A stretch of 64,000 bases of DNA, taken from the NCBI RefSeq assembly GCF_030540835.1, contig NZ_JAUOEK010000155.1:1-64000 (forward strand), in the 5' to 3' direction. Shown here piece after piece: positions 22,767 to 39,950 of this stretch. Source of the DNA: Flavivirga aquimarina (GTDB taxonomy: Bacteria > Bacteroidota > Bacteroidia > Flavobacteriales > Flavobacteriaceae). Numbering within the stretch: position 1 is the first letter of the stretch; each line of letters opens with the position of its first letter. The translations under genes were made by a program, and so were the position numbers. A model generated the notes under the pieces. The model was not told where the DNA came from. It worked only from the letters and a program-made list of their open reading frames with translations, and ran no database searches.

Positions 22767-25700
22767 TTAGTTACGTGGGATTTCGTTATAAATATATTTC
22801 AATACTTCGGTTAGATTCCAGTTGCGCATATATTGGGAATTAGGCGATTCTCTTTTCCAGGCAGCTTTTGCTTTTTGGAAACCATTTTTTATAAAAGATT
22901 CGTCTACCACTTCTCCAGGGATATTAATAAACATAGGGATGAAAGATTCAGATTTTGTTGCGCCACCATGCCAACCGTTGTACTCGTCTCCTTTATTCAC
23001 TGTTAAATACCCCATGGCACCATCAGTAAGAACAACTATATCGCCTGATCTCCCGTTGCTTCTGGTGTCATTCATTTCTTTTATTCTTTCTTTAAAGTCT
23101 GGCCACTTATTACTTAACCCACTAGCTTGTAAAAATTCATCAATGCTTCCTAGTACTAGTTGATCATTGGCCAAACTAGCGGATTTTACCCATCTGTATT
23201 GTGACCTTAATCGGCCTTCTTCATCCCCTCTATTGGTCGCTTTAATAAATATAGCTGGGACTTTTCCAAATGCACCTCCATCGATTCTGTTTATAACAGG
23301 GTTATTTTTAGGAACTAATTTATTGTTTTTGAACGTTATGCCATTTTCTCCAGTTGAAGCGGCATACAGAATCTTGGCAGCCTCTTTTATTAATTGATTA
23401 TCAATAACTTTTTTACGGGATCTAATATATAAATGCGCCATGCCGCCGTTTGGTGAATAGGTTATTTTATTTGTTCTTGCAAATCGATAGAGATCATAAA
23501 CGCTTATTGGTCCATTAGGAGTTGTAGATCCATTAGATTCACTTAACCTGATCCAATTGCCAGCGTTGGTTTTAACTTCTATACCTGTTAATTGAATAAT
23601 TGGTTGTTTTCTGTCTTCTTCGATTAATTCAAGTATATCAGTAAAGCTTTTAACTGATACAAAAGATTTAGAACTACCCCCCATATTCGTAACTGTTTTT
23701 TCTATACGAACTTGCCTGCCTGCAAATGAGCCGTTAAATATTGGTGCTTTATATAGTTTTTCCTCAATGACTTCGAAGATATCATTAGAAAATATATTGA
23801 AAATGTTTTGGCTATCATTTTGATAGGCATGGAGCCCATGATCTGCCACCAACACAAACAATGTACCATATAAAAGACCTTTTAATGATAGATCCTGTAC
23901 ATTTTTATGCAAATAGTAGTCCGTAACTTGTAATGCATGGTCTTCGATGGCCAATAAAGGGCTATCAACCTCTGGAGTTTGGGGGCCAAGCCGATAAGTG
24001 ACATTATTAATGTCTTTGTGATTATAAGGGGGATTAAATCCTGCAGGCCTTTTATCTCCTAAATAATGACCAACATTATCGGGTCCGGGAAAATACATGG
24101 CTGCAATATCTATTGGGTTTTTAGAATTGACTTGCATTCTTGACGAAACATTATGATTAAAAGTACGATAGGTCTCAAAATCCAACCTGTCTGCTGCTAC
24201 AGGGTTATGATGTATCAGGTGATGGGCACTTTTAACAGCATATTTGTCTAAAGCCTTTATTTCCTGCCATACCGATTTTGGATAACGAATGGATGTTACT
24301 TCTACCGAATTGTTTGTGTACTTTGCATACCATGGAAATAAAGAATAGCCTCTTAATTTATTTCTAATACGCAAATTAATGGGATAGTCTTGTACTAATT
24401 TATCGAATAAACTTTCTGAGTTTCTATGTGCCTTGTTATTGAAACCAATACATACAGCATTGGCATTAATTGTTAACATTGCTTTTCGTACAGAGTTAAA
24501 CCCTAAGTAAGAATTTCCATTTATACCGTGCCGACCCGGTGGTTGACCACTGTATATCCCTGTCCAATTGCACCAGGTTACGGTAGGAATCGCTGACAGG
24601 ACTTTTTCCTTGATGCCTCCATCGTTTTCATCTGTTTGAAAAGCAACGGAAAACCCTTTTGATCTCCTATCGTTTACCACTACATTAGCACTTTTATATG
24701 CAAATCCATCAACACCTACAATAACCGTTTTTAAATTACCAATCTTGAACGGACCAAGTTTTCGTTTAGCTCGCCATTTTGTTTTTTTATCGCGTAATTG
24801 AAATTCAACATAGCATGTACGCCCTAGTAATGGTGATAAATAAGGAATATGTATTTTAAGCGCATATCCTATTAATTTTTGATTAGCACCATAAAGGTTC
24901 TGGTTTATGGTAATATTGTTAAAACCCAGATCTTTATTATTTTCATCAATAACACGAAAAGTCGCATTTGGAACTAATTCATATTTTTCTAATAGCTCTT
25001 CATCGAAAATATGATGAGAATAGGTTAATCCAAGAACATAGGTATAAACGTTGGCAGGACTATGTGCCGTATAGTTCCAAGATAGGTCTTTTTTTGCTGT
25101 ATCATGATTGACTTCTATATTGTTATTGGTTACCAGTACATCAACTAAATTATCAGCTCCACTTAACGATTCCGGAATATTGGCTAATCCAACTAAGGGT
25201 GTAGATAGCCTGAAATTGTTAGGCCTATTTTCATCACTATCAGGAACCATTTCTAATTCAGATCCATTATATGTGATTGTTTGGCCAGCAACATTATCAC
25301 CTGAGATTGTTTGAATATAATCTGGTTTTGTAAGTCTAACTTGAATTGGATTGAAAAAGCCTACGTTATCAGCATTTTCAATACTAAAACTTTTAAAATT
25401 GTATGAATCTGCCATTTCAGTTATACTGTCTGTAGTAACGGTATTAGCTTCAATAATAACAGACGCTGTACTCTTATTACCAAGCACATTGGTACAAACC
25501 AAATTCAGATTAGTTTGATTCCCAATAAGAGGAATGTTAATATTACTTACAGAGGTATTGAGTTTATGAGCATAGGGTTTCCACTTTGTCCTTTCTCCTT
25601 CCGTTCTACTAAAATTTACTTCTCTGGAAATAAGGTAATCCTCTTTAGAAGGATCAATATATTCAACCAAAATCTTATCAATATCTGCCAATCCGTTTAC

Positions 25701-26333
25701 AATATTTGCCAAGGCGTCCTCAATTTCTGCTTCTAGCGAAATAGATGCTATGTTGTTTGATACATTGACCTGAACGGAATTTGGGTCGATAATAATATCT
25801 GGAAATGGATTGGAAAAACTTGTCGAAACATCTGCCAACTTATCAAATTGGTCATAAATACGTATGGTCGGCCTCGGAATTAATTCATAATTATGTGTAA
25901 TATCCTCTTCTTTTCTTGTTAGGGACTCTAAATCGAATTGTGGAACAATATTCTGTAAAGTAGAATTTCCCGTCGGATTAAAAATACCGCTAAAAATTAT
26001 CGCGTTGTCTTCTTTTGTATATAATTCTAAAATTCTTGGATCTCTAGGGTTTTCTGCATTACGCACATCAGGGACTTTATCTATTGATGGATACACATAA
26101 CTTAATTCAAAACTTCCATCTTGCTCTACAGTTCCTTTGTACGTAATCTTTTGTTTAATCAATCGCAATTGCATTTGATTGGCACGAATCAGAATTGCAA
26201 CATCAATAGAATCTGATGTTGTAGAAACTTCAGTATTTACCATTTTCCATGAAGCAGCATAATCCATTTGGGCTTCCCCATTATAACTGGACAAAATAAT
26301 TACCAAAATGAATAATATTCTTATAAATAGCAT
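22767..26333 (-). CDS. Secreted alkaline-phosphatase-superfamily protein (NPP/phosphodiesterase type) with large N-terminal region
   Basis: About 1188 residues from the ATG at 26333, which gives a signal peptide ending near NGEAQ; a GTG at 26357 would overlap the upstream gene. Residues 25 to about 530 form beta-rich, probably Ig-like, domains. From about 535 the fold is type I phosphodiesterase/nucleotide pyrophosphatase: metal Asp542 in VGVDGF, nucleophile Thr586 in PTVTWCNWTGIYSG, Asp752 and His756 in GPDNVGH, Asp831-His832 in VADHG, His1122 in GWHGG. All usual metal ligands appear present, so it should be an active phosphodiesterase or phosphohydrolase acting outside the cytoplasm. It lies 10 nt after the acidic-tailed membrane protein gene. 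Confidence 0.75.
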   Translation of the reverse strand: MLFIRILFILVIILSSYNGEAQMDYAASWKMVNTEVSTTSDSIDVAILIRANQMQLRLIKQKITYKGTVEQDGSFELSYVYPSIDKVPDVRNAENPRDPRILELYTKEDNAIIFSGIFNPTGNSTLQNIVPQFDLESLTRKEEDITHNYELIPRPTIRIYDQFDKLADVSTSFSNPFPDIIIDPNSVQVNVSNNIASISLEAEIEDALANIVNGLADIDKILVEYIDPSKEDYLISREVNFSRTEGERTKWKPYAHKLNTSVSNINIPLIGNQTNLNLVCTNVLGNKSTASVIIEANTVTTDSITEMADSYNFKSFSIENADNVGFFNPIQVRLTKPDYIQTISGDNVAGQTITYNGSELEMVPDSDENRPNNFRLSTPLVGLANIPESLSGADNLVDVLVTNNNIEVNHDTAKKDLSWNYTAHSPANVYTYVLGLTYSHHIFDEELLEKYELVPNATFRVIDENNKDLGFNNITINQNLYGANQKLIGYALKIHIPYLSPLLGRTCYVEFQLRDKKTKWRAKRKLGPFKIGNLKTVIVGVDGFAYKSANVVVNDRRSKGFSVAFQTDENDGGIKEKVLSAIPTVTWCNWTGIYSGQPPGRHGINGNSYLGFNSVRKAMLTINANAVCIGFNNKAHRNSESLFDKLVQDYPINLRIRNKLRGYSLFPWYAKYTNNSVEVTSIRYPKSVWQEIKALDKYAVKSAHHLIHHNPVAADRLDFETYRTFNHNVSSRMQVNSKNPIDIAAMYFPGPDNVGHYLGDKRPAGFNPPYNHKDINNVTYRLGPQTPEVDSPLLAIEDHALQVTDYYLHKNVQDLSLKGLLYGTLFVLVADHGLHAYQNDSQNIFNIFSNDIFEVIEEKLYKAPIFNGSFAGRQVRIEKTVTNMGGSSKSFVSVKSFTDILELIEEDRKQPIIQLTGIEVKTNAGNWIRLSESNGSTTPNGPISVYDLYRFARTNKITYSPNGGMAHLYIRSRKKVIDNQLIKEAAKILYAASTGENGITFKNNKLVPKNNPVINRIDGGAFGKVPAIFIKATNRGDEEGRLRSQYRWVKSASLANDQLVLGSIDEFLQASGLSNKWPDFKERIKEMNDTRSNGRSGDIVVLTDGAMGYLTVNKGDEYNGWHGGATKSESFIPMFINIPGEVVDESFIKNGFQKAKAAWKRESPNSQYMRNWNLTEVLKYIYNEIPRN

Positions 26334-26343
26334 AGTTTTTAAT

Positions 26344-27756
26344 TTAATATTCTTCACCTAATGGTCTATCTATAATTGGTCTATCATCATCATCTCCATT
26401 TTCATTGTCATTTTCACCCATGTCTTCATTTTCTTCTTCATTGGTGTTATCCTCTTCATCCCAATCTAATTCATCGTTATTTTCTTCTTCTCCTGTTTCA
26501 GTATCATTTTCTTGTCCTTCGGTAGTATTGTCTCCATCTGTTGGATCTATAAATACAGAGTCTTCATCATCTTCTAGTGCCGTATCTGTAATTAATCCGG
26601 CCTCCCGTCCGTTTTCTACAGTTTGCCCAGTACCATCGGTACCATGTGTATCATTTAGCATATTTTCCAGACCACCTTCAGACCATGTCCCATCGTCTAG
26701 GGCAAAAAGGTTGTCAAAATTAAATAACAAGAGAATGACAGCCGTAGCCTTGAAAAATTTAAAGTCTAATAATTTTGAAGTGTATATATAAGCTACTATG
26801 CTAAGCACTAACAGTATATAAAATATCCTATTTCCTGAAATAAGAAGCAAAGCACATGCTATTAGTATCCCTAAGAAAATAAAGAACCACTCTTTAAAAC
26901 TTTTATTTGCAAATAAGTTTTTTCCAGCACTTCTAATAACAATTCGAAACGCTAACATTAAAATACCTAGTAAGACAAAGATTTCCAGCGTACTATTGGG
27001 CAGACCATTTATTTTTGGCAAGGCATAAAGTATAATTAGATAGACTGATGCCCCCAAAAGAACCAATTCCATCTGGCTTTTATTATAAGACGAAAAACCG
27101 TCTTGCCAAAACTTAAGATACCTGTTTCCGGCTTTGTAAATTTTAACCGGCCCATACCGTCTTAGCATTTCGATTATTGAAATGATTATAAAGATAATTA
27201 TTCCCCAAACAAGCTTTGGAGTAATAATATCATAGTCGATCAAGTGTCCTTTATAATCTTCGATATAGTTGTAGTTATATACCTTTGGTTGATACGAATT
27301 ATCTTTTTGCCGCTTTAATTGTACCAAGCATTCGTCCAGATACTTAAAATGCTGCCTATTTTTAATTAAGAAAAAAGATTGGTATTCATGAACGCATTCG
27401 GTACCTCTTAATCCATTCCAACCCCCACTTTTACGATGCACATAGTACAACTGCAATGATGCGATAAAAGAACCGAATATAAAAATATACAACAAGCTCC
27501 TACCCCATCTTTTTATTGTTAACTGCATCGATCTGTTCCTTCTAAGCCAACCAACAATACCACCTATAATTATCCATACCCAAAGACCGTTAAATGGCCT
27601 TAGGAACGGATTATAGTACAATGTCTTAAATTCCCATTTGCTTAATATCCATATTATTAAAAAGGCCAAAATGTTGAAAGTCAGCCCTAAAAGAAAATAG
27701 TAAATAACGTTCTTGATAATTGAACGTAACGCGGGTTTGTTGTAAATAAATTCCAT
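26344..27756 (-). CDS. Polytopic membrane protein with acidic low-complexity tail
   Basis: 470 residues. About nine hydrophobic helices are spread over 1-355, with a soluble loop at about 105-185 containing GTECVHEYQSFF and KYLDECLVQLKRQ. The last 110 residues are a highly acidic, disordered tail rich in Asp, Glu, Asn, Thr and Gly. Such tails can bind cations or basic proteins; here that is only inference. It lies between the 319-residue membrane protein gene (10 nt) and the phosphodiesterase gene (10 nt), so the three form an operon. No family recognised. Confidence 0.6.
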   Translation of the reverse strand: MEFIYNKPALRSIIKNVIYYFLLGLTFNILAFLIIWILSKWEFKTLYYNPFLRPFNGLWVWIIIGGIVGWLRRNRSMQLTIKRWGRSLLYIFIFGSFIASLQLYYVHRKSGGWNGLRGTECVHEYQSFFLIKNRQHFKYLDECLVQLKRQKDNSYQPKVYNYNYIEDYKGHLIDYDIITPKLVWGIIIFIIISIIEMLRRYGPVKIYKAGNRYLKFWQDGFSSYNKSQMELVLLGASVYLIILYALPKINGLPNSTLEIFVLLGILMLAFRIVIRSAGKNLFANKSFKEWFFIFLGILIACALLLISGNRIFYILLVLSIVAYIYTSKLLDFKFFKATAVILLLFNFDNLFALDDGTWSEGGLENMLNDTHGTDGTGQTVENGREAGLITDTALEDDEDSVFIDPTDGDNTTEGQENDTETGEEENNDELDWDEEDNTNEEENEDMGENDNENGDDDDRPIIDRPLGEEY

Positions 27757-27766
27757 TTTTCTAGAG

Positions 27767-28726
27767 TTATTGATTAAACTTCTCGACAGGTTCGCTAAGT
27801 ATAAAAATGCTTTTAATTGTTTGATCGTTTTTTAGTCTCACCTGATGTATACCAGGTTTAGAAATTTGCTTTATCAAATCTTGATTTGGCAGTAATTTCA
27901 ATACTTCATCTCCAATTATTACAGTAGCATTGCTTCCAGTTCTCTTATTTTTAATAGGAATAGAATCTCCGCTGTTAATTCTTATAATATGTGGATTTAA
28001 TTGGTCATTGGAAATCACAATTTGGGAATCGTATACAGCATTAGAATTCGTATAGACTGTTAAAACTATAACAGATATACAAAGAACTCCTGTAAAGCGT
28101 AACAGTCCTTTTTTAAAGAATTTTAAATTGGTTATCGTTACATCGAAATTTTGAACTAATTTACCCAAAGGGTAGCCATACGCTACATGTCCAATGTATG
28201 CCGCCACTAGCGATAACGGCTTAGAAGTTAGCCCAAATAATGCTCCAAATGGAGACACAACAAAAATAGTTTCTAACAACAAAGCATAGGCTATTGCCCA
28301 CCAAAAGCTTCTTCCTCTCATAAATAGGGCATACATAATTCCGAAAGTGATACCATTTGAAAAATGGTAAATCCAGCCAATTGTGTCTGTATATGCATTG
28401 CCAATAGTTGCATCTGTTAACCAAACACCATACATATTTATAGGAGCAAATATGCGGCTCCCCATAAGCATAAATGGAACACGAATTAAATCGTAGCCAA
28501 AGGTTCCTATAAGTCCTCCTATGGCGCCTACTAAAATAAGTTTGAATACCTCTTTACTCTTAAAATATGAAAATAAAAGGACACCTAGCAACAGTATAAT
28601 TGAGGGAATAAATAACAAATAAACAGAATGGTACATTTGAGAATAACCAAAAGATTTAAGTAAAAGAATTCCACCAGAAGGAAGACAAAAAAAGAATACT
28701 ACTAGTTTAAAAATCAGACTTTTCAT
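27767..28726 (-). CDS. Polytopic membrane protein with C-terminal soluble domain
   Basis: 319 residues with about seven membrane helices up to 230 (including PSGGILLLKSFGYSQMYH and LILVGAIGGLIGTFGYDLIRVPFM). A beta-rich C-terminal domain (about 231-319) follows, with HIIRINSGDSIPI, ATVIIGDEVLKLLP and IHQVRLKNDQTIKSIFIL. That domain resembles a cupredoxin-like or Ig-like strand set without clear metal ligands. First gene of the minus-strand operon; it diverges from the amidohydrolase operon across 290 bp. Function unknown. Confidence 0.6.
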   Translation of the reverse strand: MKSLIFKLVVFFFCLPSGGILLLKSFGYSQMYHSVYLLFIPSIILLLGVLLFSYFKSKEVFKLILVGAIGGLIGTFGYDLIRVPFMLMGSRIFAPINMYGVWLTDATIGNAYTDTIGWIYHFSNGITFGIMYALFMRGRSFWWAIAYALLLETIFVVSPFGALFGLTSKPLSLVAAYIGHVAYGYPLGKLVQNFDVTITNLKFFKKGLLRFTGVLCISVIVLTVYTNSNAVYDSQIVISNDQLNPHIIRINSGDSIPIKNKRTGSNATVIIGDEVLKLLPNQDLIKQISKPGIHQVRLKNDQTIKSIFILSEPVEKFNQ

Positions 28727-29016
28727 TAGGAATGGTATCTGTTAATACCATAGCAATGAAGTTAAAAAGATAAATTGAGGTAAGTAATTTATATTTCCCC
28801 TAAGATATGAAAAAATTAAAATTAAGCAAAAAAATTGAAGAGTACGTCTTTCTATATCTATATGATTTACAGACTTTTGGTTATCAAATAAAAGATTGTA
28901 TATTTATATTCAATAATTCTTCCCTATAATTTTTTCGATTGATTTAATCAATTGTTTACTAGTTGTTAGCTATTTAAAGTATTAGCAATTAAAGTAATTT
29001 AGAAACAGATTATATT
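28727..29016. promoter_or_regulatory. Divergent intergenic region between the two halves of the 22.8-34.3 kb locus
   Basis: Holds the start regions of both operons. It contains ATTGATTTAATCAAT at about 28939 (6-bp perfect arms) and a TGGTAT/ATACCA hairpin near 28733. No clear TAnnTTTG box can be assigned with confidence. Confidence 0.4.
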
Positions 29017-30945
29017 ATGTCTAAAAAAATTATAAATGCCCATACACATGTTTTTACCAGCCAATTTGTACCGCCTTTTCTTGCAAAAACCATTGTACCA
29101 TGGCCATTGTATTTTCTAATACACACGCAATGGATTGTTGGACTAGCCAAACGTTATTATCGTTATAAACACGGATTAAAATTCCCCAATAAAAGTACTA
29201 CTGATAAAGGCTGGGATGCGCTTTATAAAAGACGCCGTAAAAAGCGTACACATACTCGTTTATATTACAATATTAAAAGCAGAGTCTATTTATATATACC
29301 ATATAGGCTTATTATATTCTGGCTATCTCTTGTTGCGACCATATATGCCGTGGAATGGTTAGCTGGGATAATAGGTTTGAATCCAGATACATCTAAAATC
29401 ATTAAAGATGTAAAAGATGAATTGGCAAAATACCATCTGTATTTCGAACTAAACGAATGGATAAAGCTCCTTTGGGTTACTACGGTTGTTATTTTTATTA
29501 ACTGGAGCCGTAGGGCTATTTGGTTTGTAATAAAAAGCCTCTTCCCTTTTTTTAATAAAATAGCAAGCTCAAAAGGAATGGAACTTTTGGAGCGCTATTT
29601 ACTTATGGGCCGCTTTGCTTTATACGGATCTCAAAAAGATGTCGCACAACGCGCATTACATCAACTCCCTCCAGGATCGGAAATGATTATTCTTCCTATG
29701 GATATGGAATATATGGGTGCTGGCAAAACAAAGCTAAGACGGGATTTACTTAAAAGTAAAGATGAAAAATTAAAAGATGGCTGGGATCATTCTGATTTTG
29801 GGGACACCTATAAGTATCAAATGAGGGAACTGTGGGAATTTGTTAAAACAAGAAGAGAATCAGGCTCTGCAGAACAATATCATCCTTTCTTGTTTGTAGA
29901 CCCAAGACGTGTAGAAAAAGAAGGAACTGCTTTTTTCGATTACGAACTGGTTAATAACAGAATGAAACTTAAACCTTGCTTCGTAAAAACCTATATAGAA
30001 GAACGCGAATTTAGCGGATTTAAAATATATCCTGCTCTGGGTTATTATGTATTTGATGAGCACTTATTGCCTATTTGGAGATATGCATCAGAAAATAACA
30101 TTCCAATAATGACACATTGCGTTATTGGTGTCATTTATTATCGCGGCCGAAAACAAAAATCATGGAATTATCATCCGGTTTTCAAACAACACTATAGAGA
30201 TAAAAGAAGTCATCTTGCAGAACCTATGTTACTTCCTCAAACAAAAAACGTGGACATGCAATTCAATTTCACCCATCCAATGAATTATTTGTGTGTATAT
30301 GAAGAAGGTTTGTTAAAAGAAGTCCTTAAAGGTGCTAAAAAAGATGCAACAAGGGAGCTTTTTGGATATAAAGATGATGCTACCCCTCTAGCCTACAATC
30401 TAAATAATTTAAAAATTTGTTTAGCACATTATGGTGGTGAAGAAGCATGGACCAAGTTCTTAGAATCCGATCGTGATGTTTACAGTCGTAGTATTATAAA
30501 AAAACCAGATGAAGGCATTATATTTATGAAAAATAGTGAAGGTAAGTTTTCTGAAAGCAAGATTAATAGCCTATGGCATGACACCGATTGGTACGCAATT
30601 ATTACAAGTATGCTTATGCAATATGAAAACATGTATGCAGATTTAAGCTATATTATTAGTAAACCATCTATTTATCCGCTTCTTAATCTTACCCTACAAA
30701 AAGGCAAAGATTATGAAGAACAATATAAAAACTATGAAGCTGAACCTTCACCTAACAAAAAAGCATCCCATTTAAAAGGAAGAAACAGGTTGCGTAGTCA
30801 TATCCTTTACGGCACAGATTTTTATGTAGTACGCAATCATAATTCTGACAAAGATCTGTTTGTAGAAACAAAAGCAGCCATAAGTGAAGAAAGTTTTGAT
30901 CTTATAGCCAGAGAAAACACATTTAATTATTTATCGCGTAATTAA
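29017..30945 (+). CDS. Membrane-embedded amidohydrolase-superfamily protein
   Basis: A TIM-barrel metal-dependent hydrolase of the Amidohydro_2 type. The metal motif HTH is at 9-11 (INAHTHVF), and further ligand candidates are His367 in IMTHC, His471 in CLAHYGG and Asp601 in YGTDFY; Lys336 in GFKIYPALGYY sits where the family often has a conserved Lys or His. Unusually, two hydrophobic helices (about 92-117 and 150-175) are inserted after the first barrel strand, with a basic KRRRKKRTHTR stretch before them. The protein should therefore be anchored in the inner membrane. 642 residues is long for the family. It is the first gene of a three-gene operon with HNH/AAA proteins (11-nt gap). Substrate unknown. 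Confidence 0.75.
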   Translation: MSKKIINAHTHVFTSQFVPPFLAKTIVPWPLYFLIHTQWIVGLAKRYYRYKHGLKFPNKSTTDKGWDALYKRRRKKRTHTRLYYNIKSRVYLYIPYRLIIFWLSLVATIYAVEWLAGIIGLNPDTSKIIKDVKDELAKYHLYFELNEWIKLLWVTTVVIFINWSRRAIWFVIKSLFPFFNKIASSKGMELLERYLLMGRFALYGSQKDVAQRALHQLPPGSEMIILPMDMEYMGAGKTKLRRDLLKSKDEKLKDGWDHSDFGDTYKYQMRELWEFVKTRRESGSAEQYHPFLFVDPRRVEKEGTAFFDYELVNNRMKLKPCFVKTYIEEREFSGFKIYPALGYYVFDEHLLPIWRYASENNIPIMTHCVIGVIYYRGRKQKSWNYHPVFKQHYRDKRSHLAEPMLLPQTKNVDMQFNFTHPMNYLCVYEEGLLKEVLKGAKKDATRELFGYKDDATPLAYNLNNLKICLAHYGGEEAWTKFLESDRDVYSRSIIKKPDEGIIFMKNSEGKFSESKINSLWHDTDWYAIITSMLMQYENMYADLSYIISKPSIYPLLNLTLQKGKDYEEQYKNYEAEPSPNKKASHLKGRNRLRSHILYGTDFYVVRNHNSDKDLFVETKAAISEESFDLIARENTFNYLSRN

Positions 30946-30956
30946 AACCCAAAACT

Positions 30957-33200
30957 ATGATTTATGTAAATCGTACCCAGATTGAAAAGCCAGCAATTTT
31001 TGAATCAACAAAAATGGTTGAAGAATTTGAAAAGATGAAACGTTTTCATTTAGAAGAAGACTATGGTAGTAAATTTAAACGTTATCGGTTTTCGTCTATT
31101 CTAACAAACTCAAAAATTAAAGAAGCTGTGAAACATTTATTTAATGGAAAATGTGCTTACTGCGAAAGTTCTATAGGAGCTAATGATTTTGGTGATATCG
31201 ATTTATTTCGACCTAAATCGGGTGCGATGAATACCGATGGATCATTTGATCCCGATCACTATTGGTGGCTGGCTTACGAATGGAATAACCTGTATCTGTC
31301 TTGTCAAGTTTGCAATCAGCGCTATAAACGTAATAACTTTCCGGTTAAAGGGCTACGAGCAGCTATTATGGGAGACCTTTCTGTTGAAGACCCCCTATTA
31401 CTTGACCCATGCCAATATGAAGATTTTATAGAACAGCATATAGGTTACGAAAAAGAACGCGCTATTCCATTAACAGAAAGAGGAAATAGCACCATAAAAA
31501 TATTGGGATTAAATAGAGAAGAGTTACTTATTGCTAGGAAAAAAGAGTTGAGGGCTCTAGATGCTGCCATAAAAACTGGTCCCTTTTATCAAGCCTCGCA
31601 GGACAAAAAGAGTACAGGTTATGATATGAAACGTATAGACCGTCTTATAAGTCCAGACAGTCCATTTTTAGCATGTAAATGGGCTAATTATTGGGTTCCA
31701 CTTACAGAAGCAAAAAAAGGGTATTTGCCAGACTATTTACCTTTTTATGAAAAAAAACGCGTATTTAAGTCTAAAAAAAGGACAACAACTCAGGCTCAAA
31801 TAACTTCTGTAAAAGAACCTGCTAGAAAAGCATACTCGCTTGATAAGATGAACGAAGGTGCTAAGAATGAGTATTTTGGACAAAGTAGATGGATAACTAA
31901 AGTAAAAATCAAGAACTTTAAAATTATTGAAGATTTAGAACTCGAATTCTCAAGTACCGATACTACTAATAAAATTAAAGATTTTAAAGAACCCTGGATG
32001 GCACTTTTGGGAGAGAATGGCACAGGAAAAAGTACCGTACTACAAGCTATCGCTTTAACTTTAGCTGGAGAAGAACGACTTAATCGACTCAATTTAAATG
32101 CTTCAAAATTTGTAAACAGAAATACAAATGAAGACAGTGGTTGGGTTAAAGTTTATTTAAACGATCGTAAAACACCAATTACACTAAACATCTCTAAATC
32201 TTCTAATAGTTTTAGTATAACCCCCAAAGCACCACAACTTATAGTGAGATCATACGGATCAACAAGGCTTTTTTCGAAAGACCCTGATAATTTACACGAA
32301 AAAGACTTTCTGTTTATTGAAAATTTATTCGACCCACTCGTTTTATTACTCAATGGTAACAAATGGCTAATAGAAAAAATAAACGACGAAAAGTTATTTC
32401 CAGAAATTGCTAAAAGTCTTAGCGACTTATTGTCTTTAAACGAAGATCAATATTTTTACCCAGATAAGGACGAGAAAGGTAATCCCATCGTTTGTTTGCA
32501 ATTATACCCTAACAAAAAGGGGATTCCATTAGATGATTTAAGTGCAGGATACAAGGCTATATTAGCTTTAGGCTTAGATATTATGATGGGCTTTGGTCAA
32601 ATTTGGCCGTCAATTTTCAATGCTCAAGGCATCGTCTTGGTAGATGAAATAGGAGTTCATTTACATCCGCGTTGGAAGATGCGTATAATAAATGCATTAC
32701 GAAAAACATTTCCTGGAATAAATTTCATTATTGCTACGCATGAGCCTCTTTGTCTTCGAGGCTTAGAAGAAGGCGAAGTTATCCTAATGAATTTAGATGA
32801 AAGCAAAAATATTGAAATCATAACCGACTTACCATCTCCAAAACGCATGCGTGTGGGACAATTATTAACTTCGGTATTTGGGCTTTACACAACTATGGAT
32901 CCTGAGTTAGAAAAACTCTATAGTGAGTTTTATCATTTACAAGGACTTAGAAAAATGACTATAGATGAAAATGACCGATTTGAAGAGCTAAAAGACATCT
33001 TAAAAGATGATATAAAAGAAGACCCTGTAACAGGAGAACAAAGATTAGAAGCTATGCTGGGAGAAGATATGAGGGAAATGCTTGGTTTTGAAATTATAGA
33101 ACAAAAAATTGCCGATTACAAAACAGGTAAATCACGACCAAATCTAAAAGACTTGAAAAAAGAAACTTTAGACGAAGTAAAAAAACTATGGGAAAGCTAA
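30957..33200 (+). CDS. HNH-domain/AAA ATPase fusion (Septu PtuB-PtuA-like)
   Basis: N-terminal HNH module of the PtuB/TIGR02646 type: Cys66/Cys69 in GKCAYCES, IDLFRPK (81-87), YWWLAYEWNNLYLSC with Cys116/Cys119. The position equivalent to the family's catalytic His is Leu83 (nucleotides confirm TTA), so nuclease activity is doubtful. A linker of about 120 residues leads to an SMC/Rad50-like ATPase: Walker A GENGTGKST (352-360), signature-like LSAGYKAI (528-535), Walker B GIVLVDEIGVHLHP (558-571), H-loop ATHEP (593-597). In Septu and retron-Ec78 systems these functions sit in two proteins, PtuA and PtuB; here they are one chain, followed after 13 nt by a second HNH gene. Likely role: nucleic-acid defence, inferred. 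Confidence 0.85.
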   Translation: MIYVNRTQIEKPAIFESTKMVEEFEKMKRFHLEEDYGSKFKRYRFSSILTNSKIKEAVKHLFNGKCAYCESSIGANDFGDIDLFRPKSGAMNTDGSFDPDHYWWLAYEWNNLYLSCQVCNQRYKRNNFPVKGLRAAIMGDLSVEDPLLLDPCQYEDFIEQHIGYEKERAIPLTERGNSTIKILGLNREELLIARKKELRALDAAIKTGPFYQASQDKKSTGYDMKRIDRLISPDSPFLACKWANYWVPLTEAKKGYLPDYLPFYEKKRVFKSKKRTTTQAQITSVKEPARKAYSLDKMNEGAKNEYFGQSRWITKVKIKNFKIIEDLELEFSSTDTTNKIKDFKEPWMALLGENGTGKSTVLQAIALTLAGEERLNRLNLNASKFVNRNTNEDSGWVKVYLNDRKTPITLNISKSSNSFSITPKAPQLIVRSYGSTRLFSKDPDNLHEKDFLFIENLFDPLVLLLNGNKWLIEKINDEKLFPEIAKSLSDLLSLNEDQYFYPDKDEKGNPIVCLQLYPNKKGIPLDDLSAGYKAILALGLDIMMGFGQIWPSIFNAQGIVLVDEIGVHLHPRWKMRIINALRKTFPGINFIIATHEPLCLRGLEEGEVILMNLDESKNIEIITDLPSPKRMRVGQLLTSVFGLYTTMDPELEKLYSEFYHLQGLRKMTIDENDRFEELKDILKDDIKEDPVTGEQRLEAMLGEDMREMLGFEIIEQKIADYKTGKSRPNLKDLKKETLDEVKKLWES

Positions 33201-33213
33201 TAATAAAGAAAAG

Positions 33214-34275
33214 ATGATAAAAATAGAGCGTCCAGAGCAACCAGATATCCCTATTTACACTACTAAAAATAGTACACTCGATAGAAATGCCGCAAAAGAC
33301 ACCGCATTACGCGACAAATTAAAGCTTTTAATAGACGGAGCACTACCCCATTTTGAAAATATTTTCGATCGATTATCTACCAATGGTAAATTCTCGAAAG
33401 CTGAGACTGAAACCTTAAAGGCTATCGCCTTTTTTGCTGATGAGGCTAACTTTAATAATGACAAAAAGTTAACAACCGAGAAAAATTTAAAGTTTGGCGT
33501 TTATAAAGATGATGCATTAAAAAAGAAGTTAAAAGCAGTTTTTAATAACAAATGTGCATATTGTGAAAGTGATTTTACTCATGTAACACCTCCAGATATT
33601 GAGCATTTTAGGCCAAAAGCAGCTATAAACCCATTCACAAATCAAAAAGATGAAACACTAATATATCCAGGGTATTATTGGCTTGGAGCCGATTGGGATA
33701 ACTTACTTTGGTCCTGCCCATTATGTAACAGAAAGACCAAACAAGAAATCCCTGATGCGGTAGAGCCTGTTCCTGTGGGTAAAAAAAACCGTTTTCCTGT
33801 TAACAATGGAAATCGAATTCGGCACCACCACCAGATTGTTAATGATGAGGAATCCCACAGACTTTTAATAGATCCATGCAAAGAAGATCCATCCGAACAT
33901 TTAGAGTTTCAAACCGATGGATTAGTAATGGCTAAATTAGATGACCAAGGTAACCCAAGTCCTATGGGGCAAGCCTCCATACCTGCTTATGCTTTAAACA
34001 GAGCTGATTTAAAGCACTGGCGAGAAGAAGAAATTATTACTTTAGAAGGGCTTCTATTGGGTATAATGTCATCTATTGAACTATTTATAAATGCAGCCGA
34101 TCCAGACAAAAAAGAAGCTTATAAACAGCGTTTTCTGAAAATAAAAAAAGTTATAAAACACAAACTTTCACCCGAAGCTCAATATTTAGCTCAAAAAAAA
34201 GTGGTAGTCGATGCTTTTTTCGAACAAGAAGGTTTGGAGGCAATAGGTTTAACGAAAGAGGGGTTGTTAAATTGA
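33214..34275 (+). CDS. Stand-alone HNH endonuclease (PtuB-like)
   Basis: 353 residues. The HNH core is complete: Cys114/Cys117 in NKCAYCES, Glu130-His131 in PDIEHFRPK, Asn163 in WDNLLWSC, Cys168/Cys171 in SCPLCN. The family arrangement (Cys pair, EHFRPK, WxN, Cys pair) matches PtuB-type HNH nucleases paired with AAA ATPases. It retains the His that the fused HNH domain lacks, so it is the likely active nuclease of the locus. A helical N-terminal 100 residues and a C-terminal helical region are not assigned. Last gene of the operon; AAAGAAAAG precedes the start. Confidence 0.85.
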   Translation: MIKIERPEQPDIPIYTTKNSTLDRNAAKDTALRDKLKLLIDGALPHFENIFDRLSTNGKFSKAETETLKAIAFFADEANFNNDKKLTTEKNLKFGVYKDDALKKKLKAVFNNKCAYCESDFTHVTPPDIEHFRPKAAINPFTNQKDETLIYPGYYWLGADWDNLLWSCPLCNRKTKQEIPDAVEPVPVGKKNRFPVNNGNRIRHHHQIVNDEESHRLLIDPCKEDPSEHLEFQTDGLVMAKLDDQGNPSPMGQASIPAYALNRADLKHWREEEIITLEGLLLGIMSSIELFINAADPDKKEAYKQRFLKIKKVIKHKLSPEAQYLAQKKVVVDAFFEQEGLEAIGLTKEGLLN

Positions 34276-34329
34276 AAAATATCTTCTCGAATTTTTTAAG
34301 GCTGCATTGCAATCTATAGGCAAAAAAAA

Positions 34330-34368
34330 ACATTTATTAATGATTTAATATTAATCATTAATAAATGT
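34330..34368 (-). terminator. Terminator between convergent genes
   Basis: A perfect 16-bp stem with a 7-nt loop. On the minus strand it is followed by U's from a run of nine A, so it ends the 34422-35051 transcript. It may also stop the HNH operon from the other side. Confidence 0.85.
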
Positions 34369-34421
34369 GATTTAAAAACCAGCTTGGGTTTTAGAAAAAA
34401 ACCAAACTTAAAACAAATTAT

Positions 34422-35051
34422 TTAGTAAGATTCTACCTCTTTACCTAATATAATATCTCTTTTAGCAACAAATAGACCTTCTTTTTTATCTAGTTTAAGA
34501 ATTCTATCACCAACGTCTTCTCGTTTTACTTTAGAACGTTTATTGCTTAATAAAGGATCGTCATCAAAAAGGAATGTTTCAATTTTATACTCAGGTTTTC
34601 CAGGCTCTTTAATAATTGGAAGTATCTGCTTAAGTTCATTTCCATATATGTATTTACCAGGAACAAAAGTGTAAAATGTATAATGTCCGTCAGCATCAGT
34701 TTTTACCCAACCTCTGTGATGTACATAACGTTTTTTGTTATATTTTTTTAATTCAAAATTCCCATCCTCATCTGCTTGGTGTATAAAGAGAAGTACATTT
34801 TTTGCAGGTGTTACACCATCGCTTTCATAAATAGTGCCTTCAATTTTTAATTTATTACGCTTAGATACAAAGTCTGGTATCGTATCTGTATTATTTAGTT
34901 GTTTTTCCGAATAGTCATAAATAGGACTACGTTTTTTATAATCTTCCGGTTTTTCTTGTAAATTATCTGCACTCGCCGATTCTTGTGCAATAATCGTATG
35001 GCATGAACAAATAAGACATGCTAAACAAAATATGTTTATTAGATTTTTCAT
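34422..35051 (-). CDS. Intradiol-dioxygenase-fold lipoprotein, probably non-catalytic
   Basis: Signal peptide with a possible lipobox (ICSC, Cys17). The core (about 68-185) fits the intradiol ring-cleavage dioxygenase beta-fold: IEGTIYESDGVTPAKNVLLF, HRGWVKTDADGHYTFYTFVPGKY, then FLFDDDPLL. The His-x-His pair that normally follows the PGxY segment as iron ligands is absent (ELKQILPIIKEPG instead). This suggests a structural or binding protein rather than a ring-cleaving enzyme. It stands alone. Confidence 0.7.
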   Translation of the reverse strand: MKNLINIFCLACLICSCHTIIAQESASADNLQEKPEDYKKRSPIYDYSEKQLNNTDTIPDFVSKRNKLKIEGTIYESDGVTPAKNVLLFIHQADEDGNFELKKYNKKRYVHHRGWVKTDADGHYTFYTFVPGKYIYGNELKQILPIIKEPGKPEYKIETFLFDDDPLLSNKRSKVKREDVGDRILKLDKKEGLFVAKRDIILGKEVESY

Positions 35052-35396
35052 AGGACTAAGGCTTAAAATTTATATAAAATTAAGCCATTATTTCTATAAT
35101 AAACTAAAAACTACGTGAACTCTTAAATTACACGATGAAATGATTTTGTTTGCAAAATTCATCGATAAAATAACCAAATCTTTACAAATTATTATTATTA
35201 ATCTGTAGTCCAATGATTACAAAATAAAATGAAAATTGAGATAGTAATTATTAATATAAAACATATTAAATCTACTTTTTTAACTATGAATTAACAAAAA
35301 AATCTAACAATATATTAACATATTTTCGAGTGATTTTTATCTAATTTCGCTCATTAAATAAACACCTTTATTCTGTTCGTGTTTTCGAGTTTTTAT
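35052..35396. promoter_or_regulatory. AT-rich region with candidate promoter of the M23 peptidase gene
   Basis: No gene seen. TAATTTCG at 35342-35349 resembles the Bacteroidota TAnnTTTG box and lies about 50 nt before the peptidase ATG. Upstream is a T-rich stretch with TTTTCG near 35323. The divergent gene at 35051 must also start from here. Confidence 0.35.
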
Positions 35397-36320
35397 ATGA
35401 AATTTCTAATCTTTTTCTCTTTTTTAATACTAACTATCTTTAGCTACGGACAAGAAACCCCTACTACAATTCAATTAACAGATTTTTCAGAGTTTCCTTT
35501 TATTAAAAAAGATATAAAAATTGAGAACTCAAAAAATGATACCTATTTAAATAATCGTATTTCAGATATAAGAAAAACGCACTGGGACACTACAGTTTAC
35601 AACCCATATAAAAATGTAAAAATTGATTTTCCTGTAAAAATTGAGTTTGAGGATACGACCTATACCCCTCCTATTAATTTTAAAAAAGTGGTGACTTCTC
35701 GTTACGGATGGCGAAGAGGAAGAGCGCATAGAGGTATTGATATCGATCTAGTTACTGGTGATAGTGTGGTATCGATGTTTGATGGTGTTGTACGTTTAGC
35801 TAGTTATACCAGAGGACATGGAAAAACAGTTATAGTAAGGCATTATAATGGTCTAGAAACGGTTTATGCTCATTTATCTAAATATTCGGTAAAGGCTAAC
35901 GATACGATACAGAAAGGCCAACTTCTTGGTTCTGGTGGAGCTACGGGTAACGCCAGAGGTAGCCATCTACATTTGTGTGTTAATTATAAAGGAATTTCAA
36001 TAAACCCGGAGTACTTATTTAACTTTGGTAAAGAGAATACTATTCGGTCTAAAAAAATATGGGTTACAGAAAATTGGGTAAAACCCGGACTTCATAGCTC
36101 TAAAAGACAAACCAAATTAAAGATTTTACATACTAAAGAAGAAGCAATTGCCAGTTTAAAAAAACGCAAAGTTGTTTATATTGTAAAAAGTGGTGATACA
36201 CTCTCTCGTATTGCGTCTAAAAATAATATATCAATGTCTACTATTTGCAAAACAAACCGCATAAGAAAGACTTCCACTTTACGCATAGGGCAAAGATTGG
36301 TTCTTGAGTATACGTTTTAA
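35397..36320 (+). CDS. M23-family peptidase with C-terminal LysM domain
   Basis: A cell-wall lytic or regulatory endopeptidase. I chose the ATG at 35397, which gives a signal peptide ending near SYGQE; the GTG at 35379 only adds six residues. The LytM/M23 core (about 95-215) has SRYGWRRGRAHRGIDID (His and Asp zinc ligands) and GSHLHL (His-x-His). The final 45 residues are a LysM repeat (VKSGDTLSRIASKNNISM...), which binds peptidoglycan. Both zinc motifs are intact, so it should be active. Confidence 0.92.
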   Translation: MKFLIFFSFLILTIFSYGQETPTTIQLTDFSEFPFIKKDIKIENSKNDTYLNNRISDIRKTHWDTTVYNPYKNVKIDFPVKIEFEDTTYTPPINFKKVVTSRYGWRRGRAHRGIDIDLVTGDSVVSMFDGVVRLASYTRGHGKTVIVRHYNGLETVYAHLSKYSVKANDTIQKGQLLGSGGATGNARGSHLHLCVNYKGISINPEYLFNFGKENTIRSKKIWVTENWVKPGLHSSKRQTKLKILHTKEEAIASLKKRKVVYIVKSGDTLSRIASKNNISMSTICKTNRIRKTSTLRIGQRLVLEYTF

Positions 36321-36370
36321 AAACTAAACTTTTTTATTAATCTTTCTTGAATTGATAGATATTAATCGAT

Positions 36371-37426
36371 TCAACCATTTACTTTAAGAATTCTATCTAT
36401 CTCTTTAAGCCAATCTTCCATTATTGTTGCATTTGTATTTAAAGCAACACTTCCATTGCCATAAGGCTCATATATTTTTTGATTTGTTACAGAAAAGAAC
36501 CCAACTGTGGGGGTTAAAGAGGCACTTGCTAAATGCATAACACCATTGTCGGCCGCAATAAATATGGTTGTATTTCTAATAATAGCACCCATTTCGCGAA
36601 TGTCCTTGCTATAAAAGTTTGGTGACTTAAATGCTATTTTCGAAATATTTTCAATAGGAAGCATCTCTATAATATTATAATGCGGGTATTCCTTCACTAA
36701 ACGTTCGTATAACGTTTTCCACCAATCTTCACAATAACACTTAGCTCCTGTTGCATTAGTATAAATACAAATTGTTTTTCTATCATTTTTGGTAATACCA
36801 TCCAATATCTTTTTTCCGTTTGCTATTTCGGCATCACTCAACTTTATATCTAAAACAGGTAATTCATTATTATTTTTAGGAAACCCTAATTTTTCTAAAA
36901 AACACCTTAAGTTGTAAATTGGATATTTAGATATATGCTCATAATCTTTATAAGTCGCTTTAATCTCCTCATCAATATCACCAAAAACTTTGTATGGAGC
37001 TTTAGTGAATTGAGTTGATAATCTGCCCGAAGATGAATTTTTATCGCCATTAATAACTAAATCATAGCGCTTCTTTCTCAATTTTAACCAGCACCATCCA
37101 TAATTTAATAAATGGTTAAAAGGTTTTTTGGGCAATTGAATAATCTTATCTATATGTTTATAATTTTCAAAAACAGGATGAGCAACACCTCCTCTAACAA
37201 ACAAATCAATTTTACAATCTGGAAAAGTATTAATAACCTCTTGTATTAAGGGAGTGGATAGTAATTGATTTCCTAATCTGTGGTTGGGTCTGGAAATAAG
37301 TACTTTTTTAATTTCAATTTTGCTATTTGGATCAATTTTAGGATTAGAATAAGAACTTCCTACATTTTTAGTGAGCCCCTTCATTATACGCCTTCTAAGC
37401 TCATTTACCTTATTAGGTACCTTCAT
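36371..37426 (-). CDS. Glycosyltransferase family 9 protein (heptosyltransferase-like)
   Basis: A GT-B glycosyltransferase acting on LPS or another surface glycan. KKVLISRPNHRLGNQLLSTPL (about 42-62) is the N-terminal nucleotide-sugar-fold signature, and FIAADNGVMHLASASLTPTVG is the C-terminal donor-binding motif of ADP-heptose:LPS heptosyltransferase-like enzymes. The N-terminal 35 residues are variable; a start at the internal Met (MKGLTKN) is possible. It is not in a larger glycan cluster here. Confidence 0.82.
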   Translation of the reverse strand: MKVPNKVNELRRRIMKGLTKNVGSSYSNPKIDPNSKIEIKKVLISRPNHRLGNQLLSTPLIQEVINTFPDCKIDLFVRGGVAHPVFENYKHIDKIIQLPKKPFNHLLNYGWCWLKLRKKRYDLVINGDKNSSSGRLSTQFTKAPYKVFGDIDEEIKATYKDYEHISKYPIYNLRCFLEKLGFPKNNNELPVLDIKLSDAEIANGKKILDGITKNDRKTICIYTNATGAKCYCEDWWKTLYERLVKEYPHYNIIEMLPIENISKIAFKSPNFYSKDIREMGAIIRNTTIFIAADNGVMHLASASLTPTVGFFSVTNQKIYEPYGNGSVALNTNATIMEDWLKEIDRILKVNG

Positions 37427-37535
37427 TAATTTAATTAATTATGGTTAGTTTAAAGCGCAAAATACAAATAAGGTTATAGCTAGCCAAATTCATATTAATT
37501 TGAGCACACTACATAAAAATTCCTAACCACTACAT

Positions 37536-37580
37536 GTATAAAAGGGCTTACAAACAATAAGTTTGCAAGCCCTTTTATAC
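37536..37580 (-). terminator. Strong terminator after the OYE gene
   Basis: Twenty-base arms (GTATAAAAGGGCTT.../...AAGCCCTTTTATAC) with a 5-nt loop and one imperfect pair, which is a G-U pair on the minus strand. It lies 26 bp after the OYE stop and may act in both directions. Confidence 0.85.
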
Positions 37581-37606
37581 TCGTTTTATTTTAAATTAAA
37601 AGCTTA

Positions 37607-38671
37607 TTAATAAGTCGTATAACCTTCTGCCTCTGCCGAATAAAACAAATCCATATTAGGAGTTACTAAATCTTCATTTAGCTTAATTTGCTCAACAAAA
37701 TTTGGGTTAGAAATATAAGGTCTGCCAACATAAACTAAATCGTAACCTCTATTTATAACAGCTTCTGCCTTATTCGAATTATTTACATCTCCTCCTGTTA
37801 TCACAGAACCATTAAATGTTTCTTTAATTATTTTTAAAATATTCGCCATTAAATCTGCATCAAATGCTGGTCCTTGATCTACAATATGCATATAAGACAG
37901 CTTTAATTTTGAAAGTGTTTTAGTTATATAAGTAAACATATGTTTTACTTCGTCGTGATGTGCTTCCATATCGTTAAATGCTCCATAAGGAGACAAACGA
38001 ATACCAACTTTGTCTGAACCAATTTTTTCAACAACTTTCTTTACCGTTTCTAATACAAACCTACTTCTATTCTCAAAATCTCCTCCATAATTATCTGTTC
38101 TTTTGTTGGACTTTGGGTTTAAAAATTGGTTTGGCAAATAACCATTTGCAGCATGAATTTCTACACCATCTACACCAGCTTCATTTACTAACCTATATGC
38201 TGCATTAGCATACTCGCTTTTAGCAATTTCTATATCTTTAAGCGTCATTTCCTTTGGGATATCGTGAGCAATCATACCGGTATCTGAAAAGATTTCTCCA
38301 GCAGCCTGAACAGCAGACGGGCCTACGGTAAAGGCACCTTGAGGTAAATTAGCGCTTCCCGAAATACGTCCACAATGCATCAATTGAACAAATATTTTTC
38401 CATCTACTTCGTGTACAGCGTCTGCTATTTTTTTCCAACCAGCTATCTGTTCATCATTAAATGCCCCTGGTATTCTGGGATAGCCTAAACCATTTGGAGA
38501 TGGCGATGTGCCTTCTGTAATTATTAACCCCGCTCCGGCTCTTTGCTTGTAATATTCTGCCATAAGCTCGTTTGGGATATTATTAATAGCTCTACAACGG
38601 GTCATTGGAGCCATAACAACTCTATTTTTAAGAGTCATTTTTCCTAATTGATAAGATTCAAATACATCCAT
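37607..38671 (-). CDS. Old yellow enzyme-type alkene reductase (NADH:flavin oxidoreductase)
   Basis: An FMN-dependent TIM-barrel reductase of activated double bonds, as in NemA/OYE. Seen: LKNRVVMAPMTRCRA, FVQLMHCGRIS, VDGVEIHAANGYLPNQFL, RTDNYGGDFENRSRF and VITGGDVNN...DLVYVGRPYISNP. The catalytic-site pair is His-Ala-Ala-Asn (in EIHAANGYL) and the length (354) is normal. It is the second gene of an operon with a RidA-like protein behind TetR operators, which fits a reactive-electrophile detoxification role. Confidence 0.92.
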   Translation of the reverse strand: MDVFESYQLGKMTLKNRVVMAPMTRCRAINNIPNELMAEYYKQRAGAGLIITEGTSPSPNGLGYPRIPGAFNDEQIAGWKKIADAVHEVDGKIFVQLMHCGRISGSANLPQGAFTVGPSAVQAAGEIFSDTGMIAHDIPKEMTLKDIEIAKSEYANAAYRLVNEAGVDGVEIHAANGYLPNQFLNPKSNKRTDNYGGDFENRSRFVLETVKKVVEKIGSDKVGIRLSPYGAFNDMEAHHDEVKHMFTYITKTLSKLKLSYMHIVDQGPAFDADLMANILKIIKETFNGSVITGGDVNNSNKAEAVINRGYDLVYVGRPYISNPNFVEQIKLNEDLVTPNMDLFYSAEAEGYTTY

Positions 38672-38681
38672 GTTATTAAAT

Positions 38682-39140
38682 TTATTTATTAATAGTGAAT
38701 GTGCAGGTTAAGCCTACACTTAAGTTACTGTAAAGTTTATCTACACCAAATATGGCTCTGGAATGTGTTCCCTTATCGCCTAATAGGTCTAGAAATAAAT
38801 CTGAAGCACCATTAACCACTTCTGGAGCCTCATTCCAATCGGCATAAGATTGATAATACGCATCTAAATGATTCAAGCCTACTATATTCTCTAATCCCAC
38901 TTTTTCATTTATTTGGGCTATAACATTGAGGGCACACATTTGCATGCCTTTATAGCCATCTTCTGTGGTTAACTCTGCTCCCAACCTTCCTTTATAATGC
39001 AATGCACCGTTTATAATTGGAAACTGAATTGCGACATACACAATACTGCCTCTTATATTTACCGATACATAGGAACCTCCCGGGGTTGATACACTTGGAA
39101 GTTCAAGGTTTAATGCATTTAATTTTTCTTTAATATTCAT
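38682..39140 (-). CDS. RidA/YjgF-family protein
   Basis: 152 residues of the YjgF-like type found in Bacteroidota: LELPSVSTPGGSYVSV, GALHYKGRLGAEL, GYKGMQMCALNVIAQINEKVG, HSRAIFGVDKL. RidA proteins deaminate reactive enamines/imines. This longer subgroup is less well characterised. The OYE gene starts 10 nt after its stop. The TetR operator at 39177 is 37-51 nt upstream of its start. Confidence 0.85.
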   Translation of the reverse strand: MNIKEKLNALNLELPSVSTPGGSYVSVNIRGSIVYVAIQFPIINGALHYKGRLGAELTTEDGYKGMQMCALNVIAQINEKVGLENIVGLNHLDAYYQSYADWNEAPEVVNGASDLFLDLLGDKGTHSRAIFGVDKLYSNLSVGLTCTFTINK

Positions 39141-39176
39141 TTTTTACGTTGTTTTCCATGTTTTGATAATTAATAA

Positions 39177-39191
39177 TTGACCAGTCGACTA
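39177..39191. promoter_or_regulatory. TetR operator upstream of the RidA-OYE genes
   Basis: TTGACCAGTCGACTA closely matches the palindrome TAGACCAGTCGTCTA found upstream of the TetR gene itself. It lies in the 66-bp gap between the regulator stop and the RidA start. Confidence 0.7.
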
Positions 39192-39206
39192 TTAATACTT
39201 AAAAAA

Positions 39207-39782
39207 TTATAAAATAATTTCGTTCAGAAACTCTATATAAACATCAATAGGTTTACTAGACTTAGATGATTTCATTCTTAGTACGGCACCTTCCCATCCA
39301 GATATTACAAAACTTGCCAGACTTTCAGGACTTTTATCCTTTTTAATTACACCACTCTCCTGCCCTTCTGCTATACATATTTCAAAACTCTTATCCCAAA
39401 GCTCCCATCCTAAACCGATACCATTTCTCAGTTTTTCTGATTGATCAGATAATTCCAAACTACAATTAGCCAATAAGCAGCCTTCTTTAAATTCTTTTTT
39501 ACCAAAATAGGCTCGCATATTTTTAAAAAAAGTAAGAATCCGTTCTTTATGGTTTAGATCGGAATTCTTTAAATAGCTATCCAAATTATTAGAAGAGTTT
39601 TTAGAATAATAATCAATTAATTGCAATCCAAAATCTTCCTTACTTTTAAAATAGTAATAAAAAGATCCCTTAGGAATATCAGCAGCATCTAAAACTTCTT
39701 GAATACCAACATTATTGTATCCTTTCTTTAATACAAGCTCTGCTCCTCTGGCTAAAATATTATTTACAGTATCTTTTTTCAT
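39207..39782 (-). CDS. TetR/AcrR-family transcriptional regulator
   Basis: 191 residues. The helix-turn-helix (about 8-55) has LARGAELVLKKGYNNVGIQEV and IPKGSFYYYFKSKEDFG, close to the YxaF/NemR type of TetR. The C-terminal domain contains Cys101 and Cys107 in EGCLLANCSLEL; NemR-like regulators use cysteines to sense electrophiles, which fits control of the OYE enzyme, although that is inference. Palindromic operators lie directly upstream (39789) and between it and the RidA gene (39177). Confidence 0.9.
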   Translation of the reverse strand: MKKDTVNNILARGAELVLKKGYNNVGIQEVLDAADIPKGSFYYYFKSKEDFGLQLIDYYSKNSSNNLDSYLKNSDLNHKERILTFFKNMRAYFGKKEFKEGCLLANCSLELSDQSEKLRNGIGLGWELWDKSFEICIAEGQESGVIKKDKSPESLASFVISGWEGAVLRMKSSKSSKPIDVYIEFLNEIIL

Positions 39783-39788
39783 TAATAA

Positions 39789-39803
39789 TAGACCAGTCGT
39801 CTA
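39789..39803. promoter_or_regulatory. TetR operator at the regulator's own start
   Basis: TAGACCAGTCGTCTA has perfect 5-bp arms and ends 7 nt from the ATG at 39782. Binding there would repress the regulator gene. Confidence 0.75.
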
Positions 39804-39950
39804 TAAAAGTACATCTTTTTTTGAAATAGCAATTTTTTTTAACATAATTTTTTTTTATACCTAAATGCAACCTTTAATATATTTTGTTGTCTATAATAGT
39901 AGCTTAAAAAATAAAACTATTTTTAGAGCAAATTAGAGCTAGCAAAATAA

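Follow-up and report, generated by a model that had tools for sequence, protein, structure and literature searches.

Gene content of the locus

The window analyzed here is the whole stretch of 64,000 nucleotides at positions 1-64,000 of contig NZ_JAUOEK010000155.1 (assembly GCF_030540835.1) from Flavivirga aquimarina (Bacteroidota, Flavobacteriaceae). It carries three intact genes, designated A, B, and C, which all lie on the + strand and are separated by intergenic gaps of 11 and 13 nt. This arrangement is operonic, and it confirms the three-gene operon described in an earlier sequence-only reading of the same DNA. Gene A (29017..30945) encodes a predicted membrane-anchored TIM-barrel amidohydrolase of 642 aa, gene B (30957..33200) encodes a 747-aa protein in which a PtuB-like HNH domain is fused to a PtuA-like ABC ATPase, and gene C (33214..34275) encodes a PtuB-like HNH endonuclease of 353 aa. 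An inverted repeat with 21-nt arms that are 90% complementary and a 7-nt loop lies at 34325..34373, between gene C and the convergent gene at 34422-35051, and it is probably a terminator.

The operon's flanks in the window are ordinary genes, and a defense island around it is not supported. When ten flanking proteins were scanned against PADLOC at a threshold of 0.001, nine had no match and the tenth (46181-47734) produced a generic SF2 helicase match. ARAGORN found no tRNA genes in the window, no Rfam family was matched at 22000-42000 (Rfam may lack the relevant retron RNA), and a search for attachment-site repeats returned weak repeats only. The window also encodes, at 22767-26357, a type I phosphodiesterase-like protein of 1196 aa; the two membrane-like genes next to it are without a Pfam match.

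The unusual member of the operon is gene A. Its product has the features of an Amidohydro_2-like barrel, namely an HxH motif on strand 1, two further histidines, and an aspartate on strand 8, and its Pfam score falls slightly below the family cut-off. Its metal-site pattern is conserved: in an alignment of 70 rows, D229, K336, H367, H471, D542, and D601 are present in every row, and H9 and H11 are present in 69, the remaining row being gapped. Compared with Amidohydro_2/COG3618-type relatives (2-pyrone-4,6-dicarboxylate hydrolase, ACMSD, and LigJ), to which it is 9-16% identical in the rows shown, A contains an insertion of ~200 residues in which a membrane hairpin is predicted (29299..29514). 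This hairpin consists of two hydrophobic segments, at residues about 95-119 and 148-166, that are joined by a short loop. In 67 of the 70 rows, positive charge is higher in both of its flanks than in the loop; therefore, the barrel is predicted to be cytoplasmic. Catabolic amidohydrolases, hydratases, and decarboxylases make up most of the structural relatives of A. No match for A was found in PADLOC, NCBIfam, or a plasmid collection, and a profile of A run against PDB sequences produced five matches, none of them an amidohydrolase. Viral contigs contain six relatives with 22-29% identity.

The Septu-like nuclease half

Gene B matches the PADLOC PtuA1 model PDLC00292 over residues 1-746 (6.4e-197), and its first part matches PtuB1 models, the best of them over residues 1-239 (3.3e-51). 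Searching with a profile of B plus twelve relatives recovers solved PtuA chains from Septu and retron systems (best 1.1e-32), with Ec83 PtuA at 1.5e-30 and Ec78 PtuA at 8.7e-30, as well as Ec78 PtuB (2.9e-10). Given that B matches both kinds of model and that its profile finds both PtuA and PtuB, we conclude that B is a PtuB-PtuA fusion. Gene C matches PADLOC PtuB1 at 1.1e-83, and its pairwise match to the solved Ec78-type PtuB, which lies in the HNH motif, is weak (E 0.14). The Septu-like character proposed earlier for B and C is thus borne out by their PtuA1 and PtuB1 matches, and in our own subjective judgment it is highly probable that this half of the operon is Septu-type. A single-sequence structure model of B reached a pLDDT of 33 and was set aside.

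The fusion itself is not new. Three PADLOC PtuA1 models (PDLC00292, 00288, and 00291, with lengths of 726, 733, and 773) match B from residue 1 and span the HNH part as well, so the PtuB-PtuA fusion is already within PADLOC. According to the sequence-only reading, ATPase and HNH are on two separate chains in known Septu modules. That contrast stands for the classical two-chain Septu and retron PtuAB systems, beside which this operon has a separate C and a B that is itself a fusion, but it does not stand as a general statement, given PtuA1 models of fusion length. Relative to Septu type I, B and C match the models strongly, B having its Walker motifs and C its EH motif, whereas the PtuA of B bears its own N-terminal PtuB-like domain with the histidine lost, and an amidohydrolase gene precedes the B-C pair. 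Relative to retron type I-A (Ec78/Eco7, Ec83), B resembles both PtuA and PtuB by its profile matches, but no reverse transcriptase is found among 13 flanking window proteins scanned against Pfam.

The catalytic motifs of the two HNH domains differ from one another. B contains Walker A (GENGTGKS) and IVLVDEI, and C contains DIEHFRPK and the CxxC pairs. The HNH domain of B (30957..31706) is degenerate: it reads DIDLFRP where C reads DIEHFRP, with its CxxC pairs kept. Among 17 B proteins compared, a set that leaves out the unfused L113, the HNH histidine is lost in six (the window, L093, L100, L111, L154, and L084) and kept in eleven, which argues that the dead HNH copy is lineage-specific; only L082 and L095 retain the glutamate. 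The Glu-His pair of C is kept in all 18 proteins compared. The sequence-only reading had counted two HNH modules as two nucleases. We rejected two active HNH nucleases for the window set, since the motif histidine is lost from B and kept in C, and the set probably has one active nuclease, C. For Septu EcB88, one report (PMC13096335) describes a requirement for the PtuA Walker motifs and for H75 and N91 of PtuB in defense, as well as cleavage of tRNA-Tyr. In our reading, the residue lost in B would correspond to PtuB H75. A second report (PMC11555353) describes depletion of tRNA-Tyr by retron-Eco7 PtuAB and action on DNA by an E. coli Septu.

Distribution and neighborhoods of the amidohydrolase

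We searched samples of 299 genomes from the family, 395 from the order, and 12 from the genus. At E 0.001, A is present in 19 of the 299 family genomes, three of them by weak matches only (1e-12, 3e-9, and 3e-4). At 1e-10, 18 of the same 299 genomes have B-type matches, eight of them full-length fusions. A C-type gene adjoins all eight of these fusions, and A adjoins two, those of the window and of genome G240 (L042). The order-level search with B at 1e-60 found seven of 395 genomes, and A is beside none of three further fusions from this sample. In nine of 11 genomes, then, A is absent from the fetched stretch around the B fusion (one such stretch, L080, ends with its contig), and it is likewise absent from the fetched stretches of seven unfused PtuA-PtuB loci.

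Six of the 11 fusions (L080, L081, L085, L185, L186, and L187) lie in operons in which B-C is accompanied by a type II-like methyltransferase, a HerA-type protein, and a ~446-aa protein that matches no family. Only L185 was used to test the methyltransferase and HerA labels, which were extended to the others by similar leading sequence. These operons may represent a restriction-like system in which this type of PtuB-PtuA fusion is employed.

Within the genus, the M23 peptidase gene that adjoins the operon occurs in all 12 genomes, and A-B-C is absent from this site in all 11 congeners (L202-L212). In six of these congeners, the operon's site (window 28727-34421) is occupied by an FAD oxidase and a 115-137-aa protein. 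Given this absence and the presence of A in only 19 of the 299 family genomes, we rejected a housekeeping operon; the possibility raised with the sequence-only reading, that all three genes are conserved housekeeping genes, fails on the same grounds. The site beside the conserved pair at 34422-35051 and 35379-36320 is variable in the genus. The FAD-oxidase family of the congener site also occurs near seven of the 83 A loci described below.

A species-genome collection scanned with A produced 300 relatives, of which the best 80 were fetched; all of these 80 are from Bacteroidota, going by titles and lineages. Together with 18 family-sample loci, they make 98 loci (some from the same genomes), which dereplication at 85% identity reduced to 83, the window being excluded. 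Within 5 kb, PtuA- and PtuB-type genes are found at 12 of these 83 loci from the best 80 of 300 and the family sample. At ten of the 12, B lies within two genes of A on the same strand, which supports the view that other genomes also carry the amidohydrolase as part of this operon. Eight loci have the order A-B-C (L093, L094, L095, L096, L097, L100, L116, and L154), with gaps of at most 17 nt or overlaps. The order in L042 is B-C-A, with a gap of 34 nt, and L113 has an unfused ATPase and a gap of 50 nt. In L111, B and C are convergent to A, and in L114 they lie on the opposite strand from A with two genes between. No B-C is found within 5 kb at the remaining 71 loci, a few of which are near contig ends.

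The combination is therefore not exclusive, contrary to what the sequence-only reading had implied: A stands beside two of the eight family-sample fusions and none of the three from the order, at none of seven unfused loci, and mostly without B-C in its own neighborhoods. The prospect, raised at that time, of A being absent next to fusions in other genomes holds for most of the genomes sampled, but A is present in a conserved minority.

Other genes recur within 5 kb of A, under family labels that rest on single tested members. A protein of ~530-720 aa occurs at 13 of the 83 loci, with HExxH in four sequences read by eye, and MBL-type, C-type HNH, and B-type ATPase genes occur at 12 loci each. 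A second MBL family is found at nine loci, another family, which we take to be response-regulator-like, at seven, a caspase and a caspase-neighbor protein at five each, and a STAND family at three. A is paired at other loci with caspase-MBL, peptidase-MBL, subtilase-MBL, or STAND genes. In L102, L121, L129, and L169, the gene directly before A encodes a member of one family, 890-1004 aa long; the AAA_16 match found for L102 marks this family as a STAND-type NTPase. None of the recognized partners is found at 42 of the 83 loci, and 23 of these 42 have no same-strand neighbor within 160 nt, so A may act alone. These 42 partnerless loci weigh most heavily against an exclusively immune interpretation of A.

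A caspase, a 401-496-aa protein, an MBL protein, and A are encoded in one operon in L103, L105, L108, L128, L138-L141, and L146, with A last except in L146, where it is first; these operons are Canu-like with an added amidohydrolase. Their caspase / ~400-496-aa / MBL layout follows the order given for canABC (caspase, CanB, and MBL pro-nuclease) in PMC12799240. In the window, no caspase or MBL gene is found among A, B, C, or the scanned flanks. A 640-723-aa protein is encoded with an MBL-type protein and A in L040, L106, L125, L134, L171, and L172, where A is last, and in L152 and L157, where A is first. The member of this family that was tested has no Pfam match, and with its MBL partner it is possibly another protease/pro-nuclease pair. 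A phmmer search of the PDB with the ~720-aa peptidase-like protein returned one match, which is unrelated. A second hydrolase-like family, weakly Peptidase_M19-like in the tested member, occurs near A in L111, L115, L159, and L166, and the protein that directly follows an A relative at L109:7013-8488 presumably resembles a contractile tail sheath in its leading sequence.

The evidence for defense islands around A loci is weak. When 90 of 115 neighbor proteins of the Septu-type A loci were compared with PADLOC at 1e-15, 42 families were matched. The 25 of these that were listed, with one member each, comprise CBASS cyclase and phospholipase, PDC-S02, PDC-S48, and DEDDh. A patatin-like protein is encoded a few kb upstream of A-B-C at L097:4233-6779, where a CD-NTase (CBASS-like) may also be encoded.

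We compared the history of A with that of its partners, using a tree of A built by a quick method from 79 rows (the 83 loci minus five with A shorter than 480 aa, plus the window). Septu labels, which were assigned from gene context before the tree was built, fall on 12 rows and require five changes, at least four of them forced by starred branches; both gains and losses are possible. Shuffled labels require a mean of 11.4 changes, and none of 500 shuffles is as low as five. A single clade of the Septu-type A rows is rejected (p-AU 5e-7). The A of L095 lies with that of the window in a starred eight-row set, in which the inner six-row fork has a support of only 80, whereas its B and C are sisters of those of L042 (100/100 and 98/97), whose A is in another starred group. 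A and B-C have thus exchanged partners and nonetheless continue to occur together. Relative to the window, L094, L096, and L097 are 66-67% identical in A, 40-42% in B, and 38-41% in C; the nuclease half either changes faster than A or has been exchanged.

Proposed function and alternatives

We read the locus as a Septu variant with a predicted membrane amidohydrolase, in which the amidohydrolase would be the new element and the B fusion is already known. By titles and abstracts, no description of this combination was found in a full-text literature collection, outside of which lie most subscription journals and bioRxiv's own collection. Some papers there do mention amidohydrolases, but with regard to YqfB-type amidohydrolases or CHAP domains, and the words 'amidohydrolase' and 'Septu' do not occur in the text of PMC12799240.

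We consider it reasonably likely, from sequence and gene context, that A-B-C was acquired horizontally and is an immune operon of Septu type to which a membrane enzyme has been added. Under this proposal, B would form an ATPase scaffold in which the dead HNH copy fills the PtuB position, and C would be the one active nuclease, held on that scaffold. Upon infection, the ATPase would license C to cut nucleic acid, and growth would stop. The target may be tRNA or DNA, as both have been reported for retron and Septu PtuAB. A would sit at the cytoplasmic face of the inner membrane as an upstream enzyme-sensor or signal processor that gates the effector. An upstream position is suggested by the joining of one A family to effectors of different chemistry (PtuB nucleases, caspase/peptidase-MBL, and STAND). 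In our subjective estimation, A is likely a functional partner of B-C, while an upstream role has about even odds and is favored over an effector role. A is modular and probably acts as a trigger or a co-effector. If A is a working part, then Septu gains a membrane enzymatic component.

A broader version of this proposal, which we hold only tentatively, is that A represents a new kind of shared immune module in Bacteroidota and forms the common front end of Septu-type, caspase-MBL, metallopeptidase-MBL, subtilase-MBL, and STAND operons. A would then sense or process a membrane-proximal signal, and the effectors behind this one enzymatic trigger would be exchangeable. If A is a working part, one enzyme family outside PADLOC and NCBIfam would also link several immune-like operon types that are listed separately by current tools. 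A can serve as a marker for further such operons, given 300 relatives in one scan. The occurrence of the same A behind different effectors would also make sensor and effector roles separable.

A might instead be a second, membrane-side effector. Triggered by the ATPase or another sensor, it would hydrolyze a substrate near the membrane that the cell cannot do without, and so kill or stall the cell in parallel with the nuclease. We regard this as somewhat unlikely. A is the only obvious enzyme in the four STAND-A pairs and its barrel is predicted to face the cytoplasm. Shared effectors are also a documented form of immune diversification: according to PMC12799240, a pro-nuclease and its protease, as in the MBL nuclease-protease pairs, have been acquired repeatedly by unrelated systems, and one caspase-MBL locus, the canu of Klebsiella aerogenes, protects against phage T4. 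However, the Septu, caspase-MBL, and peptidase-MBL settings already include a likely nuclease, and the solitary A at 23 of the 42 partnerless loci would need its own control.

That B-C is a self-sufficient Septu, with A an independent defense or stress gene simply carried along beside it, seems improbable to us. The many B-C fusions that lack A (nine of 11 sampled genomes) and the many A loci that lack B-C (71 of 83) are what would be expected of such independence, but the tight spacing in the eight A-B-C loci, the repeated pairings, and the retention of the pairing after partner exchange are not. By a rough estimate that takes 18 of 299 genomes with a B-type match and a 10-kb target in about 4 Mb, chance would place B-C near A at ~0.01 locus of 83, as opposed to the 12 seen. 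A non-immune role, in which A processes a small molecule in a metabolic or stress operon and B-C serves DNA or RNA maintenance, is very unlikely in our view. It would fit the mostly catabolic structural relatives of A and the ordinary genes that flank the operon in the window; against it stand the patchy occurrence of A (19 of 299 genomes), the variable site, the full-length matches to Septu models, and the presence of A beside caspase, MBL, and STAND genes at other loci.
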